From positions 17,715-81,714 of the forward strand of contig CACWLL010000009.1 in NCBI GenBank assembly GCA_902761735.1: a stretch of DNA of 64,000 bases, written 5' to 3'. Below are positions 17,300 to 24,804 of this stretch, one piece after another; within the stretch, counting starts at the first letter, position 1, and each line of letters starts with the position of its first letter. The notes below the pieces were generated by a model that did not search any database, was not told the DNA's origin, and was given only the letters and a program-made list of their open reading frames with translations. The translations under genes were made by a program, and so were the position numbers. Source of the DNA: an uncultured bacterium. Its GTDB lineage: Bacteria > Cyanobacteriota > Vampirovibrionia > Gastranaerophilales > Gastranaerophilaceae.

Positions 17300-18076
17300 T
17301 TATAGAATACTTGCAACGAACATTGATAATATTATAACCAATGAAATAAAGGAAGAAATGCCGACGATTATCCAAAATATCGGTAATCCTTTTTTATTAT
17401 TTTTGTGTTTCATTGTATAAGATTGTTTTGTGAAAACCTTTTTCTTTTTTGTGTTTTTTGTGGTTTGTTGATTTTTTTCCTTAGGTTTTATCCCCCAACT
17501 TATAGGGAATAATGTTATTTCTTTTTTTGATTTTTTACCCCTTTTAGAACTTGTTGATTTTTGACTTTTAGCGGAAGATTTTTTTTCTTCTTTTTCTTTC
17601 GCTTCTTCATATTTATCAGACAGGGATTTTTTTGATTTTTTGCCTGTTACGAGAAGTTCGGTATCATATCTTAATTTAAGAATATCAGATTTTGCACCTT
17701 TGTTATAAACAACATAATTAATAGCGACTTCAAAGGCTCTTTGCAGGCACTCAAGAGCATCCATACCGCTTTTTTTATTCGTAGATGAGTGAACAGCATC
17801 ATTACCTTGCTTTTTTAGGAAATACAAATCATCAATAAACTCTTTTTCTTGTTCTTCACCGGTAGAATTATCTTTTAATGTTGCAAGCATATCGTCAAAA
17901 GTTTCTTCGGTTGTACGTTTCTTCCCAAGAACATTTTTGCAGACATTTTCTGCAAATTGCCTTGTCTGAGTTATACATTGAGAAAAATACTCATCACGAT
18001 AAAGTTTTTCTGCTTCATTAATTATTTCAAATAAATTTTTATCGGTTTTTTTTAGAAAATCAAAATTCGCAGCCAT
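17300..18076 (-). CDS. DUF4145-domain protein with C-terminal membrane anchor
   Basis: A 258-residue protein. Residues 1-115 match the DUF4145 pattern (FDFLKKTDKNLFEIINEAEK, then SQCITQTRQFAENVCKNVLG and DDLYFLKKQGNDAVHSS), a module often fused to nucleases or sensors. A strongly basic Lys/Ser linker (about 140-225) leads to one C-terminal transmembrane helix (IFWIIVGISSFISLVIILSM). The start is set at ATG 18076 because the domain begins there; the frame is open upstream to 18148 without a ribosome binding site. It is divergent from the riboswitch operon, with its upstream region shared. Function unknown. Confidence 0.75.
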   Translation of the reverse strand: MAANFDFLKKTDKNLFEIINEAEKLYRDEYFSQCITQTRQFAENVCKNVLGKKRTTEETFDDMLATLKDNSTGEEQEKEFIDDLYFLKKQGNDAVHSSTNKKSGMDALECLQRAFEVAINYVVYNKGAKSDILKLRYDTELLVTGKKSKKSLSDKYEEAKEKEEKKSSAKSQKSTSSKRGKKSKKEITLFPISWGIKPKEKNQQTTKNTKKKKVFTKQSYTMKHKNNKKGLPIFWIIVGISSFISLVIILSMFVASIL

Positions 18077-18141
18077 CATTAAATTCCCGTTACAATAGTA
18101 CAATGCCGTAATATTATTGTCAAGGAGAGAACAGACTGCTG

Positions 18142-18170
18142 TTGACATTGTGATATTGTTATCTTAGGAT
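18142..18170 (+). promoter_or_regulatory. Promoter of the cobalamin-riboswitch operon
   Basis: TTGACA (18142-18147), a 17-base spacer and TAGGAT (18165-18170), placing the transcription start just before the aptamer at about 18177. Confidence 0.75.
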
Positions 18171-18176
18171 ATTTAT

Positions 18177-18340
18177 ACAAACGAGGAAACGGGGTGAAAT
18201 TCCCCGACTGTAGCCGCAACCGTATGCCGCAGATGCGGGAAAGCCGGAATGCTCAATGTTGATGAATTTCTACGTGCGATATGGAAATTCTTCCGTACTT
18301 ATTGAGATGTCCTCTTGTGAATGATGAAGAGGATTTTTTA
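18177..18340 (+). ncRNA. Cobalamin (B12) riboswitch
   Basis: The core matches the conserved cobalamin aptamer: GGAAACGGGGTGAAATTCC (18185-18203), ACTG, then GCCGCAACCGTA (18213-18224), a short P6-like hairpin (CCGC/GCGG), and the 3' box AAAGCCGGAATGC (18240-18252). A downstream hairpin GAATTTC (18264-18270) / GAAATTC (18284-18290) carries TGCG (18275-18278) in its loop, complementary to CGCA (18215-18218) in the aptamer. This is the kissing-loop pair that couples ligand binding to expression in this class. The peripheral domains are short. The cobalamin form bound is not determinable here. It controls the genes from 18341. Confidence 0.92.
18310..18339 (+). terminator. Riboswitch expression platform: terminator / SD-sequestering hairpin
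   Basis: TCCTCTT (18310-18316) pairs with AAGAGGA (18327-18333), followed by six T (18334-18339) and directly by the ATG at 18341. The 3' arm contains the AAGAGG that would act as Shine-Dalgarno, so the same hairpin could end transcription and block translation. Confidence 0.75.
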
Positions 18341-19045
18341 ATGCCGTCAGCAGTTATGTCACAACCGAATATTATGAAAACAGGAACATGCCCTCACGGT
18401 GCGCCTTTAGGAGCTTGCCCTATTTGTAACGGTATGGGCGGCGGAATGAAAACTGCTGACCATACTGCGAAACCGGGTGAAATGAGCTGGAATGAATGTG
18501 CTGCAATAGGTGCTATGTTAAAGGCTCAACAAAATGCAAAAATGCAGCGAGAGCAAGATGCTGTAAGTTTTGCACAAAGGCTTGCGGCTTTTGAAAAGTT
18601 TATGATGAATGCATCATCAAGGCTTGCAAATATTACCGGTATGATAACCAATACATTTCCTCCGTTTTTATCACGTCCGATTAATTTTATTATTAATATT
18701 ACTGTCGGAAATTTATTAAATGCGGTTAAAAATGCCCCATCGGTTGTTCAAAGTGCACTTAATTTTTTATCCCAAAAATTTGCAGATATTTCTGATAAAT
18801 TAACCGCAATATATGGTGAAGTTAAGGCGGCAATATCAAAAAAAATAGGTGAGCCGCTGAACGAGTTCAAGAAAAAGGTTAAATCGCTATTTTCAATTTT
18901 TGATGCTCAAGATACTCAAAATGATGAAAAGAAAGTTGACGAGGCTAAAAAAGCATTCAAATTAAAAACTTTTATACATTGTTTGTATAAAAAGCTTAAA
19001 GGAGAGAATGATGAAGAATTAATCCGGAAAGGACGCGAGAAATGA
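18341..19045 (+). CDS. Uncharacterised Cys-motif protein under a cobalamin riboswitch
   Basis: A 234-residue protein of unknown family. Near the N-terminus is TCPHGAPLGACPICNGMGGG, giving C17-x-H19-x6-C26-x2-C29, a plausible metal-binding knuckle, then a Gly/Met-rich turn. The rest is helical: a basic-acidic segment, a moderately hydrophobic stretch (RPINFIINITVGNLLNAV, about 120-140), and amphipathic helices ending in a Lys-rich tail. No signal peptide is seen. The start is ATG 18341, set by AAGAGG 8 bases upstream; an ATG at 18281 lies inside the riboswitch platform. It overlaps the next gene by four bases. B12 control suggests a role in cobalamin or metal handling, but nothing in the sequence proves it. 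Confidence 0.85.
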   Translation: MPSAVMSQPNIMKTGTCPHGAPLGACPICNGMGGGMKTADHTAKPGEMSWNECAAIGAMLKAQQNAKMQREQDAVSFAQRLAAFEKFMMNASSRLANITGMITNTFPPFLSRPINFIINITVGNLLNAVKNAPSVVQSALNFLSQKFADISDKLTAIYGEVKAAISKKIGEPLNEFKKKVKSLFSIFDAQDTQNDEKKVDEAKKAFKLKTFIHCLYKKLKGENDEELIRKGREK

Positions 19046-20541
19046 TTGCTATACAATTTAATGATAGTGAAACCCGACGTCAGTATCGGAATTTGACAAC
19101 AAGCCAAAAAGTTAACAATTACAAAACAAAAGAAGGTGTAATTGTAAACAGTTTTATAAAAGAGAATGAAGATGGTATTTTATCGGACTGCTATAATCTT
19201 GAGGATACAAGAGATACATTAATTATTTCAAGTAATACAAAGCTTCCTAAACAATTAGGTGAAAATTTAACTAATCCTGAGCGGAGCTTACTGCCGATTA
19301 GTGCGTTGGCGGTTGGAGTGATGGGTATATTTGCAGGGATTTCCGCTTTTGTAAAGCGCAATGCAAAAATTACAAATGAAATCGCAAAAGAAAAATGGAT
19401 AACCTCATTTACTCGAAATATTTCCATAAATGAAGAAACAGTTCAGGCAATTGTGCAGATGGTTCAAAATCCTAACAGAAAAACTGTTCGTGCGGGATTA
19501 GGGGTGCTAACTCTTACCGCAACGGCGTTTATGGGTAAAACTTTCTTTGACGGATTTAAAGATGTGTGGGTAAAAAAGAGAGAAGCGGATATCCAAAAAG
19601 ACTTGCAAGAAAACTTAATTTCTGTAGAAACACAATCTTTTAGCGGGAAAATGCAAATTATCAGGAATTTACTGTCAGAGAAAACAAAACTTTTTTCGGA
19701 ATACCTGTCCCCGACAGAGCCAAAAATTCAACCTTTTGGTATGTTTAAATCGTCGAAAGATTTATCTTTTGGGACTTCTGACAATCACAGAAAAGATACC
19801 TCTGATAATCTAAAATATTTTGCGTTAGGTTCTGCGACTTTTGCATCAATAATAGCTCTTTCTCTGTATTCAATGAAAAATCTTAGGGCAGGAACTCTTG
19901 AAACTCAAAAATTTATTGAAAAAACAAAACAAGACATGCAATTGATTGCGAAATCCTCAAAAAATAAAAAGTATGTTCAAGAGTATTTGGAAAACATGCT
20001 CCAATTTATTAATGCCAAACAATCAGATATCGATGAAGTTATTAAACATACGTCATGGTCTAAAAGAGAGAAACAAAAGTTTGTAACACGTGTAATGAAT
20101 AAGATAAATACTTCTACGGTAAAGGTAAATCCGAATATTGGCGGTGACGGTACTCAAAAACCTTCATTTTCTTCGTTTGTCGATGATTATAGAGCATTTT
20201 TCTATAATCTTTTAATAGAGCCTGACAATAAGCAATTCCAGCAGCTTTTCTTTGGAACTACGACTCTTGCTGCAATAAGTTATGGCGGCAAACTTGTAGG
20301 GGATGCAATAAAAGAAGTTCAAGTCAAAAAGATTAATGCGCAAACGGAATTGGATTTACAGCGCAGGTTGGTTTCTACGGAATTGAGAAACTTCAAAGCA
20401 AAAAAAGATGCAGCTATAAAACCGCTTGTGGAAGAGTTTTTCTCAAAAGTTGATGAAGGGAAGTCAAAAGAACAGCTGAAAACAATGGCAGAAAATATAT
20501 TATTGGAAATTAAAAACGGACCTCCGTTTGTATATTCATAA
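19042..20541 (+). CDS. Uncharacterised membrane protein of the riboswitch operon
   Basis: A 499-residue protein of unrecognised family. It has about four spaced hydrophobic segments: LLPISALAVGVMGIFAGISA (about 85-105), a stretch around LGVLTLTATAFMGKTFFDG, one around FALGSATFASIIALSLYSM, and one around FFGTTTLAAISYGGKLVGDA. Each is followed by a charged amphipathic helix (KKREADIQKDLQENLI and VQVKKINAQTELDLQRRL are alike), suggesting three related membrane-plus-helix units. AAAGGA lies upstream, and the ATG overlaps the previous stop (ATGA), so the two proteins are translationally coupled. B12-dependent control is inferred from the operon. Function unknown. Confidence 0.8.
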   Translation: MIAIQFNDSETRRQYRNLTTSQKVNNYKTKEGVIVNSFIKENEDGILSDCYNLEDTRDTLIISSNTKLPKQLGENLTNPERSLLPISALAVGVMGIFAGISAFVKRNAKITNEIAKEKWITSFTRNISINEETVQAIVQMVQNPNRKTVRAGLGVLTLTATAFMGKTFFDGFKDVWVKKREADIQKDLQENLISVETQSFSGKMQIIRNLLSEKTKLFSEYLSPTEPKIQPFGMFKSSKDLSFGTSDNHRKDTSDNLKYFALGSATFASIIALSLYSMKNLRAGTLETQKFIEKTKQDMQLIAKSSKNKKYVQEYLENMLQFINAKQSDIDEVIKHTSWSKREKQKFVTRVMNKINTSTVKVNPNIGGDGTQKPSFSSFVDDYRAFFYNLLIEPDNKQFQQLFFGTTTLAAISYGGKLVGDAIKEVQVKKINAQTELDLQRRLVSTELRNFKAKKDAAIKPLVEEFFSKVDEGKSKEQLKTMAENILLEIKNGPPFVYS

Positions 20542-20554
20542 AAAGGAGTAAATA

Positions 20555-21013
20555 ATGATTCAATCAATTGGTAATCCCGTAAATGTAAAATATGTCCCGT
20601 ATCCGACTCCTCAATTCGCACCCAAAAAACAAGATAACTACATAAGGTTTGACGAGAATAAGACGGATTTGTACGTAAGACAAGGAGAGAAAGCCCTGCC
20701 ATACTTAAATGAGATATTAAAATATTCGCAAAATGAAGTACAATTAACGGAAGCATTATATATTTTGAATCGCATGCATGATGCCGGAACAAAAGGAATT
20801 GACAAAATGTACCCGACGCTTTCCCGACTAAATTGCACACAATCCCCATATATACAGACTTTTCTGGCGGGAATTTACAGAAAAACTCGAGTGCCGGATG
20901 CGTTTGGACCTTTGTTCAGCATGCTTATTCAAAATTCGCTAAAGCCTGTTTCTACTGTTCCTTTTGACCCAAATGAGGAGATTGGCGGGGCAATCTTGAG
21001 TTATTTTTCATAA
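20555..21013 (+). CDS. Uncharacterised protein, third gene of the riboswitch operon
   Basis: A 152-residue soluble protein, with AAAAGGAG seven bases before the ATG and only 13 bases after the previous stop. The N-terminus is extended and Pro-rich (NPVNVKYVPYPTPQFAPKK). The rest looks like a short alpha-helical repeat (EKALPYLNEILKYSQ, then TEALYILNRMHDAGTKGI, then TFLAGIYRKTRVPDAFGPLF), similar to HEAT or armadillo-type units and possibly a protein-binding scaffold. No catalytic motif is visible. An antisense open frame of 176 codons over this region (20319-20849) lacks a ribosome binding site and is a shadow. Confidence 0.75.
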   Translation: MIQSIGNPVNVKYVPYPTPQFAPKKQDNYIRFDENKTDLYVRQGEKALPYLNEILKYSQNEVQLTEALYILNRMHDAGTKGIDKMYPTLSRLNCTQSPYIQTFLAGIYRKTRVPDAFGPLFSMLIQNSLKPVSTVPFDPNEEIGGAILSYFS

Positions 21014-21389: not shown

Positions 21390-21665
21390 ATGATAACAAT
21401 AAATCCTGTAAAATTTAACACATCTAAACAGTACATTTCTTTCGGAGATGGAAACACTGTTACTCCGAATATGGCGATTCTTGCTTTGCAAAATCCAAAT
21501 GCTCGTAGAGAATTTGAAGGTAATTTGAATAATTCTATGCCGTCTAACCCAATTTCAACGGTCATAAAAAAAATTGCAAGAACTTATAAATATGTAGTTT
21601 CCTCATCTGAACAAGCAAATATGCAGAGTCAAACTCCGGATCAAAGAATTTCATTTTTAGGATAG
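21390..21665 (+). CDS. Small uncharacterised protein
   Basis: A 91-residue protein with GAGAGGAGG seven bases before the ATG, its own consensus promoter and a terminator behind, so it is a well-supported monocistronic gene. It opens MITINPVKFNTSKQYISFGD, has an Asn/Pro-rich middle and ends QRISFLG. The short 'SFG' phrase near the N-terminus recurs in similar form (NFG) in the small protein at 50526. No known domain, signal peptide or membrane segment is seen. Function unknown. Confidence 0.8.
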   Translation: MITINPVKFNTSKQYISFGDGNTVTPNMAILALQNPNARREFEGNLNNSMPSNPISTVIKKIARTYKYVVSSSEQANMQSQTPDQRISFLG

Positions 21666-21750: not shown

Positions 21751-21837
21751 ATGTAAATTTTTGTAAAATAAAATTTGATTTCTATAAAGATATTAAATAA
21801 ACATTCCGATATACACGAAGAATATAAGGAGTACTTT

Positions 21838-23217
21838 ATGGAAATTCAAAATACCCCGTTTTTAAGATTGGTAGCTAATCAAAAGAAAATCGATGCCGAA
21901 TCTACTAAGGAATATACGCTTCAAAATCCTGAGGAAGCTATGGAATTGAAACAAATAGTAGAAGACGTATTGAGAGTAAATGAAGGAGAAACAATATATA
22001 GCATTGCCAATCAAATTGCTGTTCAAGGTAATACAAAGAATTCGTGTATTTTGCATGATGCTACAACAACAGAGAACATTAAAAAAGGGTATGCTATTAC
22101 TATTAGTGATTTATCTGAACAACAGATAAAAGATATTAAGCGAGTTATTTATGAATTGCACCATAAGCATTCAACTCCGGTAAATCCTTCTAATCCGGTT
22201 AACCCTGATAACCCGGTGGTCAACCCTGATCCTGATAACCCGGTTGTCAATCCTGACCCTGATGACCCGGTGGTTAACCCTGACAATCCGTCAACTCCGG
22301 CTTCTGATGACGTAGATGCGGCTCTTGATAAATTTTTTGAATATGTTCATTCTAAAAATGGTTCTATTACAAAAGAAACAGGTATCACAAGAACTCAGCT
22401 CGTAATGTTGACGAAGAATGATGATAGGGAAGAAGACTTTGGGTATTTCTTCAGTCAGTTAAACAAGATTTTTAATGTTTTGGACAGTAATTCCAACAGT
22501 ACATTATCTGCAGATGAAATTAAAGTAATTATAACCAATAATCCTGAATTAATAAATAACATGGTAGATATACAAAAAGGTGTAATTGCAAGTGATTCGG
22601 AGCAAGCAAATAGCGTTGAAAGAGCTTATCAAGCAAAAATTGAAGAATTTGCCGCACAAATACAAACACAATTTAGTGCTATGACATTAGAACAAAAGAA
22701 AGCGTTTGTTATTGCAAGAACCGAGGAATATTTTAATGCTTCCGGTATGACTGACCAAGCACAAGCTCTTGCAAGATTAAAAGCTGCAAATAAAATTGCA
22801 TACGATGATTTGAATTCCGGCAACGGCGATGGAAGCAGAACTCTTGGTGTATATCTGTATTACTTAAACAGCTCAGGGACTTCTTGGTATTCTGATGATG
22901 ATGAGGGCGATGGCCCCGGTGGCATGTTCTTAGATATAAATATGGCACGTGACCCGAGTACTAAATGGTATGATTTAGTTGAAGTCATGGTTCATGAAGT
23001 AACTCATGCTACGGCTTATTTACATCCTACAAATTTGCCTAAATGGGGTGAACATGTTGCATATCAAGCAGGCGAAGATTATTTGGATAGCGTCAGCGAA
23101 GGTGCTTGGTGGGGCTTTAAAGAACTTGATGAAATAAGAGAGCATATCGCAACTTATTATAGCCAGAAAGATGTTGACTTAGAGCCTAATTGGGCGTGGT
23201 GGACATACCAAGCTTAA
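21838..23217 (+). CDS. Putative zinc metalloprotease with LysM-like and EF-hand modules
   Basis: A 459-residue multidomain protein. Residues about 48-90 resemble a LysM (NEGETIYSIANQIA ... GYAITI). Residues 114-155 form a low-complexity linker of near-identical NPDNPVV / NPDPDDPVV repeats. Residues 216-227 (DSNSNSTLSADE) form a canonical 12-residue EF-hand calcium loop. The C-terminal domain carries the zincin motif HEVTH at 386-390 within VEVMVHEVTHATAYLHP; Glu or His in WGEHVAYQ could be the third ligand. No N-terminal signal peptide is present. The start is ATG 21838, with AAGGAG just upstream; the frame is open for 63 bases before that. It lies 93 bases before the first MGM-family gene. 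An extracellular role is likely but the export route is unclear. Confidence 0.78.
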   Translation: MEIQNTPFLRLVANQKKIDAESTKEYTLQNPEEAMELKQIVEDVLRVNEGETIYSIANQIAVQGNTKNSCILHDATTTENIKKGYAITISDLSEQQIKDIKRVIYELHHKHSTPVNPSNPVNPDNPVVNPDPDNPVVNPDPDDPVVNPDNPSTPASDDVDAALDKFFEYVHSKNGSITKETGITRTQLVMLTKNDDREEDFGYFFSQLNKIFNVLDSNSNSTLSADEIKVIITNNPELINNMVDIQKGVIASDSEQANSVERAYQAKIEEFAAQIQTQFSAMTLEQKKAFVIARTEEYFNASGMTDQAQALARLKAANKIAYDDLNSGNGDGSRTLGVYLYYLNSSGTSWYSDDDEGDGPGGMFLDINMARDPSTKWYDLVEVMVHEVTHATAYLHPTNLPKWGEHVAYQAGEDYLDSVSEGAWWGFKELDEIREHIATYYSQKDVDLEPNWAWWTYQA

Positions 23218-23310: not shown

Positions 23311-24804
23311 ATGGGAATGGCAGCATCACAAGCTAGATTTTTAGGGCTAACGGCAAGACAGAATAATGTCGAGTTTGAAGGTCAACAGATTAACCAACAG
23401 CGTACAATGTTGTCTAACGAATCTGCTAATTATTACAATGATTTGTTAGGTATGTCTGTACCGACACCACCTTCAGTCGACAGCTTTACAAAGACAATTT
23501 ATACTTTCTCGGACGGGGCGTTGACAAATACTGTTACGTCAATGATTGCGCAGTCGAACGGAATGTATACAATGAGCTACCTGTCAAAATGGCAAGATGA
23601 TTATGCTGCTATTGCCGCTGCGACAAGCGTTGTTTCACAACTTGGAGCTCCGGGAAACTATGTTTATGCTATCGGTTCAAGAAACCTGAGAACTTTAGGT
23701 TTGCTTCAAGGTAATACTGTAATGGGTAATACAATAGTTGTAAACGGCAAGGCTTATAATGTTCAAACAGATGCAACAGGTCCTTACTATGAGGCAACAA
23801 CTTATGAAAAGCAACCGAGACAGCAGGTTCCGCAAAATGAAATTGCTAATTTTGAATATTATCAATATGATCAGGCAACGAATACAATTATATCTCAAGT
23901 GTTTAAAGATGCTGCAACAGGCGGATTTTATACCCTTGATGATGACGAAAATCGTACGGATTTACCTGGTGTTACAGAAGAAGATTTAATTATTGCGTTA
24001 TATAATGAAGTAAATACCGGTAATGTTGATGATGATACCGAATACAGTACTACTTTAATTGAAAAAAATGCTGACGGTAATTATTATTATGAACCGTATG
24101 AAGAAGTAACAAGTAAGAATTATCTTACACAGGCTCAAATTCAAAGCATTACAACAAGTTCTTATGCAACTGATGATGAATATTTGAGTACGTTATCACC
24201 AACTCAGCTTGCTAATACTTTAAAAGAAGAAGCTGCTTGGAAAGAATTGTTAACTCAAAAGTACGGACTCAGTGACTGGATGGTAAGATATGCTCTTGAT
24301 ACAACTACGGGTATTCACAGACCTTACTTCTACGCTGTCAATGATTTAGAAAATGCTGTATATGATCCGACTACAAAAACTTCATTGTCAAAAATTAATT
24401 GTTACACTATCGGCAGTGAAGAAAAGATAGAAGAATTCAAGGGCGTTCAAAATTGTAAGATTGAAAAAGATTCTTCAGGAAGATTGATTACTTTGAGTAT
24501 TCCTACTGTTTTGGATAATGGTTCGGTTTTATATGTTGATTATCCGCTTACAACCGAAACTTCAACCGATCAGGAAAAATACAATGATGCTATGAATCAA
24601 TATGAATATGATAAAGCGTTATATGATCAAGCAGTTGAAAAAATCAATGCTAAGATTGAAGTAATTCAAGCTGAAGATAAAAATCTGGAATTGAGATTGA
24701 AACAACTTGATACTGAACAAAAAGCTATTCAAACAGAAAAAGATGCTGTATCAAAAGTTATTGAAAAGAATACAAGCGATACTTTCAAAACTTTCTCAGC
24801 ATAA
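23311..24804 (+). CDS. MGM-family protein A (conserved ends, variable middle)
   Basis: A 497-residue protein of an apparently undescribed family. The N-terminus MGMAASQARFLGLTARQNN continues with GQQINQQRT, and the C-terminal 70 residues form a long helix (LELRLKQLDTEQKAIQTEK, then FKTFSA). Both ends match the paralogue at 46354-47598 closely, while the central 300 residues are unrelated and look beta-rich with Asp/Thr/Tyr (TDLPGVTEEDLI). No signal peptide, membrane helix or enzyme motif is visible. AAAGGAAA precedes the ATG. Such conserved ends with a variable core recall self-assembling, exported appendage subunits, but this is inference. A terminator follows. Confidence 0.85.
   Translation: MGMAASQARFLGLTARQNNVEFEGQQINQQRTMLSNESANYYNDLLGMSVPTPPSVDSFTKTIYTFSDGALTNTVTSMIAQSNGMYTMSYLSKWQDDYAAIAAATSVVSQLGAPGNYVYAIGSRNLRTLGLLQGNTVMGNTIVVNGKAYNVQTDATGPYYEATTYEKQPRQQVPQNEIANFEYYQYDQATNTIISQVFKDAATGGFYTLDDDENRTDLPGVTEEDLIIALYNEVNTGNVDDDTEYSTTLIEKNADGNYYYEPYEEVTSKNYLTQAQIQSITTSSYATDDEYLSTLSPTQLANTLKEEAAWKELLTQKYGLSDWMVRYALDTTTGIHRPYFYAVNDLENAVYDPTTKTSLSKINCYTIGSEEKIEEFKGVQNCKIEKDSSGRLITLSIPTVLDNGSVLYVDYPLTTETSTDQEKYNDAMNQYEYDKALYDQAVEKINAKIEVIQAEDKNLELRLKQLDTEQKAIQTEKDAVSKVIEKNTSDTFKTFSA

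Follow-up and report, generated by a model that had tools for sequence, protein, structure and literature searches.

What are three genes without a recognized family doing behind a vitamin B12 riboswitch? The question is raised by a stretch of 64,000 nucleotides (hereafter the window) from contig CACWLL010000009.1 of assembly GCA_902761735.1, which belongs to an uncultured member of the Gastranaerophilaceae in the order Gastranaerophilales. Cobamides shape gut communities, and many bacteria need these cofactors and cannot make them. The three-gene operon described here is a strong candidate for an unrecognized way of acquiring B12. A cobalamin-responsive riboswitch probably represses it at high B12, and its products probably serve to obtain or keep corrinoids at low B12. 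The analysis shows the aptamer, its conserved position, a hairpin that masks the start of translation, and three genes that are coupled and conserved, and it shows that the operon is distributed along with B12 use among genomes without the supply routes tested.

The riboswitch leader and the genes behind it

The leader and the operon occupy the following positions of the window.

18142-18170, plus strand: promoter-like site TTGACA-17-TAGGAT (consensus scan, 10 of 12 positions match)
18168-18260, plus strand: aptamer of an AdoCbl-II cobalamin riboswitch, RF01689 (Rfam, 41.6 bits against a gathering threshold of 36.5)
18264-18290, plus strand: predicted hairpin with UACGUGCGAUAU in its loop, a possible P13/L13 partner of the aptamer
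18300-18343, plus strand: predicted expression-platform hairpin with a U6 run, pairing with GAGG (Shine-Dalgarno sequence) and ATG (start codon) of gene 1
18341-19045, plus strand: gene 1, open reading frame of 234 amino acids, its start placed from orthologs and the conserved leader
19042-20541, plus strand: gene 2, open reading frame of 499 amino acids
20555-21013, plus strand: gene 3, open reading frame of 152 amino acids

A sequence-only reading of this DNA had proposed a B12 aptamer upstream of the genes, and the Rfam score above the gathering threshold (E = 1.5e-06, 64 kb searched) bears this out. The family named in that reading, RF00174, was the wrong one, as it has zero Rfam matches in both the window and the window genome. 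The conserved core nucleotides of the AdoCbl-II aptamer are present, with 25 invariant columns across 29 aligned relatives including the window sequence, and the operon leader is the single RF01689 match in the whole 2.0-Mb window genome. The element resembles the AdoCbl-II riboswitches of RF01689 in its score, its invariant core, and its placement in a 5' leader, but differs from them in that the genes downstream belong to unrecognized families and in that one family of the order (f3) has RF00174 at this place.

Gene 2, used as the query against GTDB contigs, yielded 71 loci, 68 of which retain upstream DNA and thus a leader for comparison. The hairpin at 18300-18343 carries on its 3' side the GAGG Shine-Dalgarno sequence, six consecutive U, and the gene 1 start codon, and therefore could block the start of translation, terminate transcription, or both. 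The terminator-type platform that had been expected is also seen in the folding results: the inner hairpin at 18309-18334, followed by a T run, beats 200 of 200 shuffles, with a fold z-score of -3.82 (-2.85 for the 90-nucleotide fold). Pairing of the form GTCCTC...GAGGA occurs in 53 of the 68 leaders, that of the window among them. In the mechanism proposed, ligand binding to the aptamer would favor the hairpin in which the ribosome-binding site and the start codon are concealed, perhaps terminating transcription as well, and falling B12 would expose both sites. Cobalamin riboswitches normally switch genes off when B12 is plentiful; by analogy, this leader would turn the operon off at high B12, and because of this usual direction a storage role for the operon appears disfavored.

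Two further claims about the leader fared less well. The TTGACA-17-TAGGAT site at 18142 is present as a promoter had been read there, but sites of this kind are no more frequent in the sequence than in shuffles. A kissing-loop complement was not recovered: a simple complementarity test for strict complements of at least 5 bases gave none in the window leader and 11 among the 68 leaders overall. The word ACGTGC is found in 24 leaders, and in that of the window it forms part of a hairpin loop.

The open reading frames confirm the tight coupling of the genes, with a 4-base overlap between genes 1 and 2 (kept in most orthologous loci) and 13 bases between genes 2 and 3. Searches of Pfam and NCBIfam gave no family above cut-off for any of the three window proteins. 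Searches of Pfam, NCBIfam, and PHROGs with single proteins, together with Pfam searches on whole alignments, brought up tape-measure, apolipoprotein, and baculovirus envelope profiles; these matches were weak and scattered and were rejected. A sequence search of the PDB yielded no credible match for gene 1 or gene 2.

Conservation of the operon and features of its proteins

Genes 1 and 3 adjoin gene 2 in nearly all 71 loci. A covariance model built from 29 aptamers detects a riboswitch immediately before gene 1 in every one of the 68 leaders, and the same holds for 20 of 20 further loci fetched by gene 1, ruling out an arrangement peculiar to this genome. B12 riboswitch control of the three genes, as first read from a single locus, is therefore supported across the order, in four families: RF01689 leads the operon in the window family (f1), f5, and f6, and RF00174 does so in f3. 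In three f3 loci (L137, L138, and L139), this RF00174 riboswitch is longer and stands in place of RF01689, which suggests that the aptamer has changed or been replaced within a single order. In families f3 and f6, genes 1 and 2 occur with no gene 3 next to them. Gene 1 is present in 176 of the 192 Gastranaerophilales genomes compared, and a sample of 224 genomes from the phylum contained no matches outside this order. Two copies of gene 1 (G032:C4:288511-289182 and G246:C7:32902-33579) read through one or two stop codons and are possible pseudogenes or assembly errors; G032 also has three riboswitch matches. The only constant neighbors are the three genes themselves, found in 67 to 69 loci, whereas the next family is found in 39. 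Because there is no constant partner beyond these genes, no transporter or enzyme is linked to the operon by position. The papers on Melainabacteria vitamins and on cobalamin riboswitches that the literature searches found contain no description of this operon.

The motif C-x-H-x6-C-x2-C that had been noticed near the N-terminus of the gene 1 product is invariant in the ortholog alignment (C17, H19, C26, and C29, together with C53), and the f3 homolog L034 has a Cys/His motif with shorter spacing. The invariant site is likely to be a metal site, either structural or functional. The protein also has a weakly hydrophobic segment at about residues 108-126 by hydropathy and a helical C-terminal part. 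The gene 2 product, which is well conserved and translationally coupled to gene 1, has four hydrophobic segments by hydropathy (about 86-104, 151-169, 260-278, and 402-420). Residues 146-228 and 393-478 form an internal duplication of a unit that consists of a membrane segment and a long charged helix (hhalign gives a probability of 96.65 and E = 4.6e-10, with 33% identity across 76 columns). The earlier suggestion that the membrane segments are each followed by similar charged helices is confirmed, as this duplication, for two of the four segments. Searches of phage and plasmid records found no relative of gene 2. The gene 3 product is a soluble, all-helical domain in the AlphaFold2 model (predicted local distance difference test, pLDDT, 84.8; predicted template modeling score, pTM, 0.77). 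The model superposes on armadillo proteins at Z-scores of about 11 to 12 (best 12.2, with many armadillo proteins nearby), and the product is probably a solenoid of the armadillo/HEAT type. This likeness is suggestive without being decisive: the Z-scores are within the range common for helical repeats, below the level that sets such repeats apart from common arrangements. The protein is also short. A profile match to designed armadillo repeats is weak (E = 2.4e-06), with no significant single stretch.

Co-distribution with B12 use

Other cobalamin riboswitches of the order precede btuB/btuCDF clusters or the B12-independent nrdDG. Since the targets elsewhere are uptake genes and a B12-sparing isozyme, the operon looks like part of a B12-scarcity regulon with these two known kinds of members. 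In three loci, a second cobalamin riboswitch, divergent from the operon, lies before class III nrdDG (L052, 2763-2911; L063, 2615-2761; L108, 4941-5088; all on the minus strand). The riboswitch control of nrdDG in the order and its divergent position in these loci count in favor of a reading in which the operon is itself a B12-sparing substitute, its products replacing or bypassing a B12-dependent process at low B12 as nrdDG does for NrdJ, the adenosylcobalamin-dependent ribonucleotide reductase. The two systems share the riboswitch class, the order, and sometimes a divergent arrangement. However, nrdDG encodes a recognized isozyme, whereas Pfam and NCBIfam searches of the three window proteins recognized no enzyme domain that would replace a B12 enzyme, and the operon tends to accompany NrdJ rather than replace it.

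This last point comes from presence tables combined across 192 genomes of the order, 170 of which belong to the window family, with supply routes tallied as EcfT, CbiC (a biosynthesis marker), BtuC, and the TonB plug. Within this family, the operon is present in 160 of 170 genomes and NrdJ in 118 of 170. Neither EcfT nor CbiC was found in any of the 170, and BtuC with the TonB plug was found in 10. Among the 114 NrdJ genomes of the family that have none of the four routes, 112 carry the operon; 39 of these 114 also have no NrdD, and the operon is present in 37 of the 39. In other families, every NrdJ genome without the operon has either CbiC (G196 and G198) or BtuC (G202 and G204). Conversely, eight of the ten operon-less genomes in the window family are also without NrdJ, and all eight keep NrdD. 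The same contrast is found within genera (G016 versus G052 and G062 versus G027), where the genus-mate keeps both the operon and NrdJ. With shrinking B12 use, a sparing function should persist and a supply function should be lost, so the pattern fits supply. Since the operon has mostly disappeared along with NrdJ where NrdD is kept, the opposite of what a substitute predicts, a supply role is favored, and the B12-sparing substitute is an unlikely explanation.

The window genome itself has NrdJ (TIGR02504, 734.7 bits; PRK08665, 974.7 bits against a cut-off of 961) and encodes a B12-binding radical SAM protein. Several observations count against a role in B12 supply and need to be set beside these patterns. 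The co-distribution counts and their Fisher values ignore shared ancestry, and the genomes are related. As the window genome has NrdD as well, its DNA synthesis does not strictly require B12, which is useful there but perhaps not essential. The NrdJ genomes G080 and G234 are counterexamples, with no operon and none of the tested routes, unless the operon falls in an assembly gap, which is possible. The operon coexists with BtuC in twelve genomes and is therefore not a simple replacement. It is also kept in 38 genomes of the window family without NrdJ or any tested route; most of these have a protein with a B12-binding domain, but three members of one genus (G047, G100, and G121) keep the operon without NrdJ and without a PF02310 protein. 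The negative results on supply cover EcfT, CbiC, BtuC, and the TonB plug, and BacA/SbmA, BtuM, adenosyltransferases, and QueG were not searched for. Finally, no ATPase, porin, or known transporter fold was recognized in the operon, and the AlphaFold2 model of the gene 2 product, all-helical and of low confidence (pLDDT 61), has no credible match among solved folds.

Candidate roles of the gene products

The simplest function consistent with a supply role would be B12 import by proteins of a new family, transport itself being what we infer. The gene 2 product, with its duplicated unit of membrane helix plus long helix, would be the membrane part. The gene 1 product may be its metal- or corrinoid-handling partner, acting through the invariant Cys/His site, and in families f1 and f5 the gene 3 product may act as a scaffold in the cytosol. 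These three assignments are the least certain steps of the mechanism. The broader proposal that the three proteins form a new class of B12 importer, unrelated to BtuCDF, energy-coupling factor (ECF) systems, BtuM, and BacA and serving most Gastranaerophilales, is put forward tentatively, with chances somewhat short of even.

Among known systems, BtuB-BtuCDF is found in a few genomes of the order under the control of the same class of cobalamin riboswitch, but the operon has no TonB receptor, permease, ATPase, or binding protein. Searches of the window genome and the operon for the TonB plug (PF07715) and the FecCD-type permease (PF01032) found neither. For ECF-type CbrT, the EcfT/CbiQ coupling subunit is absent from all 170 genomes of the window family, including the window genome. 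BtuM is a membrane protein that takes up B12 without a dedicated ATPase and has a cysteine ligand to cobalt (PMC6072759). It serves as a precedent for such uptake and not as a demonstrated relative of the operon proteins. BtuM has six helices, and hydropathy gives the gene 2 product four hydrophobic segments. The membrane proteins for B12 uptake are mostly still to be identified (PMC6072759).

After the importer, the next form of the acquisition idea is a corrinoid-handling complex with a separate transporter. The products would then serve intracellular corrinoid trafficking, release, or salvage, and entry would proceed via a general transporter, such as an ATP-binding cassette (ABC) protein of the BacA/SbmA type, together with large porins. 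The invariant Cys/His site of gene 1, the soluble probable solenoid of gene 3, and the failure to recognize an energy-coupling part in the operon are consistent with this arrangement, as is BacA, an ABC protein that transports B12 and belongs to neither the BtuC nor the ECF class (PMC10960864). The SbmA_BacA domain was matched by none of the operon proteins in Pfam and NCBIfam, and the rest of the genome was not searched for BacA/SbmA. However, the several hydrophobic segments of gene 2, its conservation, and its translational coupling to gene 1 count against this arrangement, which is judged improbable. More doubtful still is that the operon drives a behavioral response to low B12 (envelope remodeling, vesicles, or contact with B12 producers) with an indirect link to corrinoids. 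The long helical segments and the lack of a recognized transporter fold would suit such a response, and vesicles of Bacteroides that bear riboswitch-linked Btu proteins capture B12 (PMC12751083). Nevertheless, the near-constant tie to B12 users without tested routes points to a more direct role, and no surface domains were recognized in Pfam or NCBIfam. Of the roles in the sequence-only reading (uptake, storage, metal handling, or a substitute), uptake or handling is favored, since genomes that use B12 with no recognized source retain the operon and most losses of it coincide with loss of NrdJ; for this reason a substitute is disfavored, as is storage on the grounds given above.

The genes around the operon offer some additional features. 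The divergent neighbor (17300-18148, minus strand) matches HEPN weakly (E = 0.013) and has a hydrophobic tail at its C-terminus. Downstream, a 480-amino-acid protein (21775-23217, plus strand) matches EF-hand weakly, contains a repetitive VNPDPDNP linker and a HEVTH motif of the HExxH type, and is possibly a metalloprotease. It is followed by a protein starting MGMAASQARFLGLTARQ (23311-24804, plus strand), and members of the family of this second protein follow the operon in 39 loci. By eye, several proteins start with similar NPV...F...FG-like stretches (such as those encoded at 21390-21665 and 20555-20660), which may be a common localization signal.

Melainabacteria have been reported to make vitamins B2, B3, B7, and B9, and the gut types also B5, with B12 unmentioned (PMC3787301). 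For many bacteria, the uptake proteins are unassigned, and members of this order often have a B12-dependent reductase and a B12-sensing switch. Most of the main family has none of the tested supply routes, and the order also has one conserved B12-controlled operon. If the importer proposal is true, a new class of importer would explain how B12-using Gastranaerophilales live without recognized B12 uptake or synthesis. Three protein families thereby gain a first functional context, and the gap in B12 supply becomes testable with three genes.

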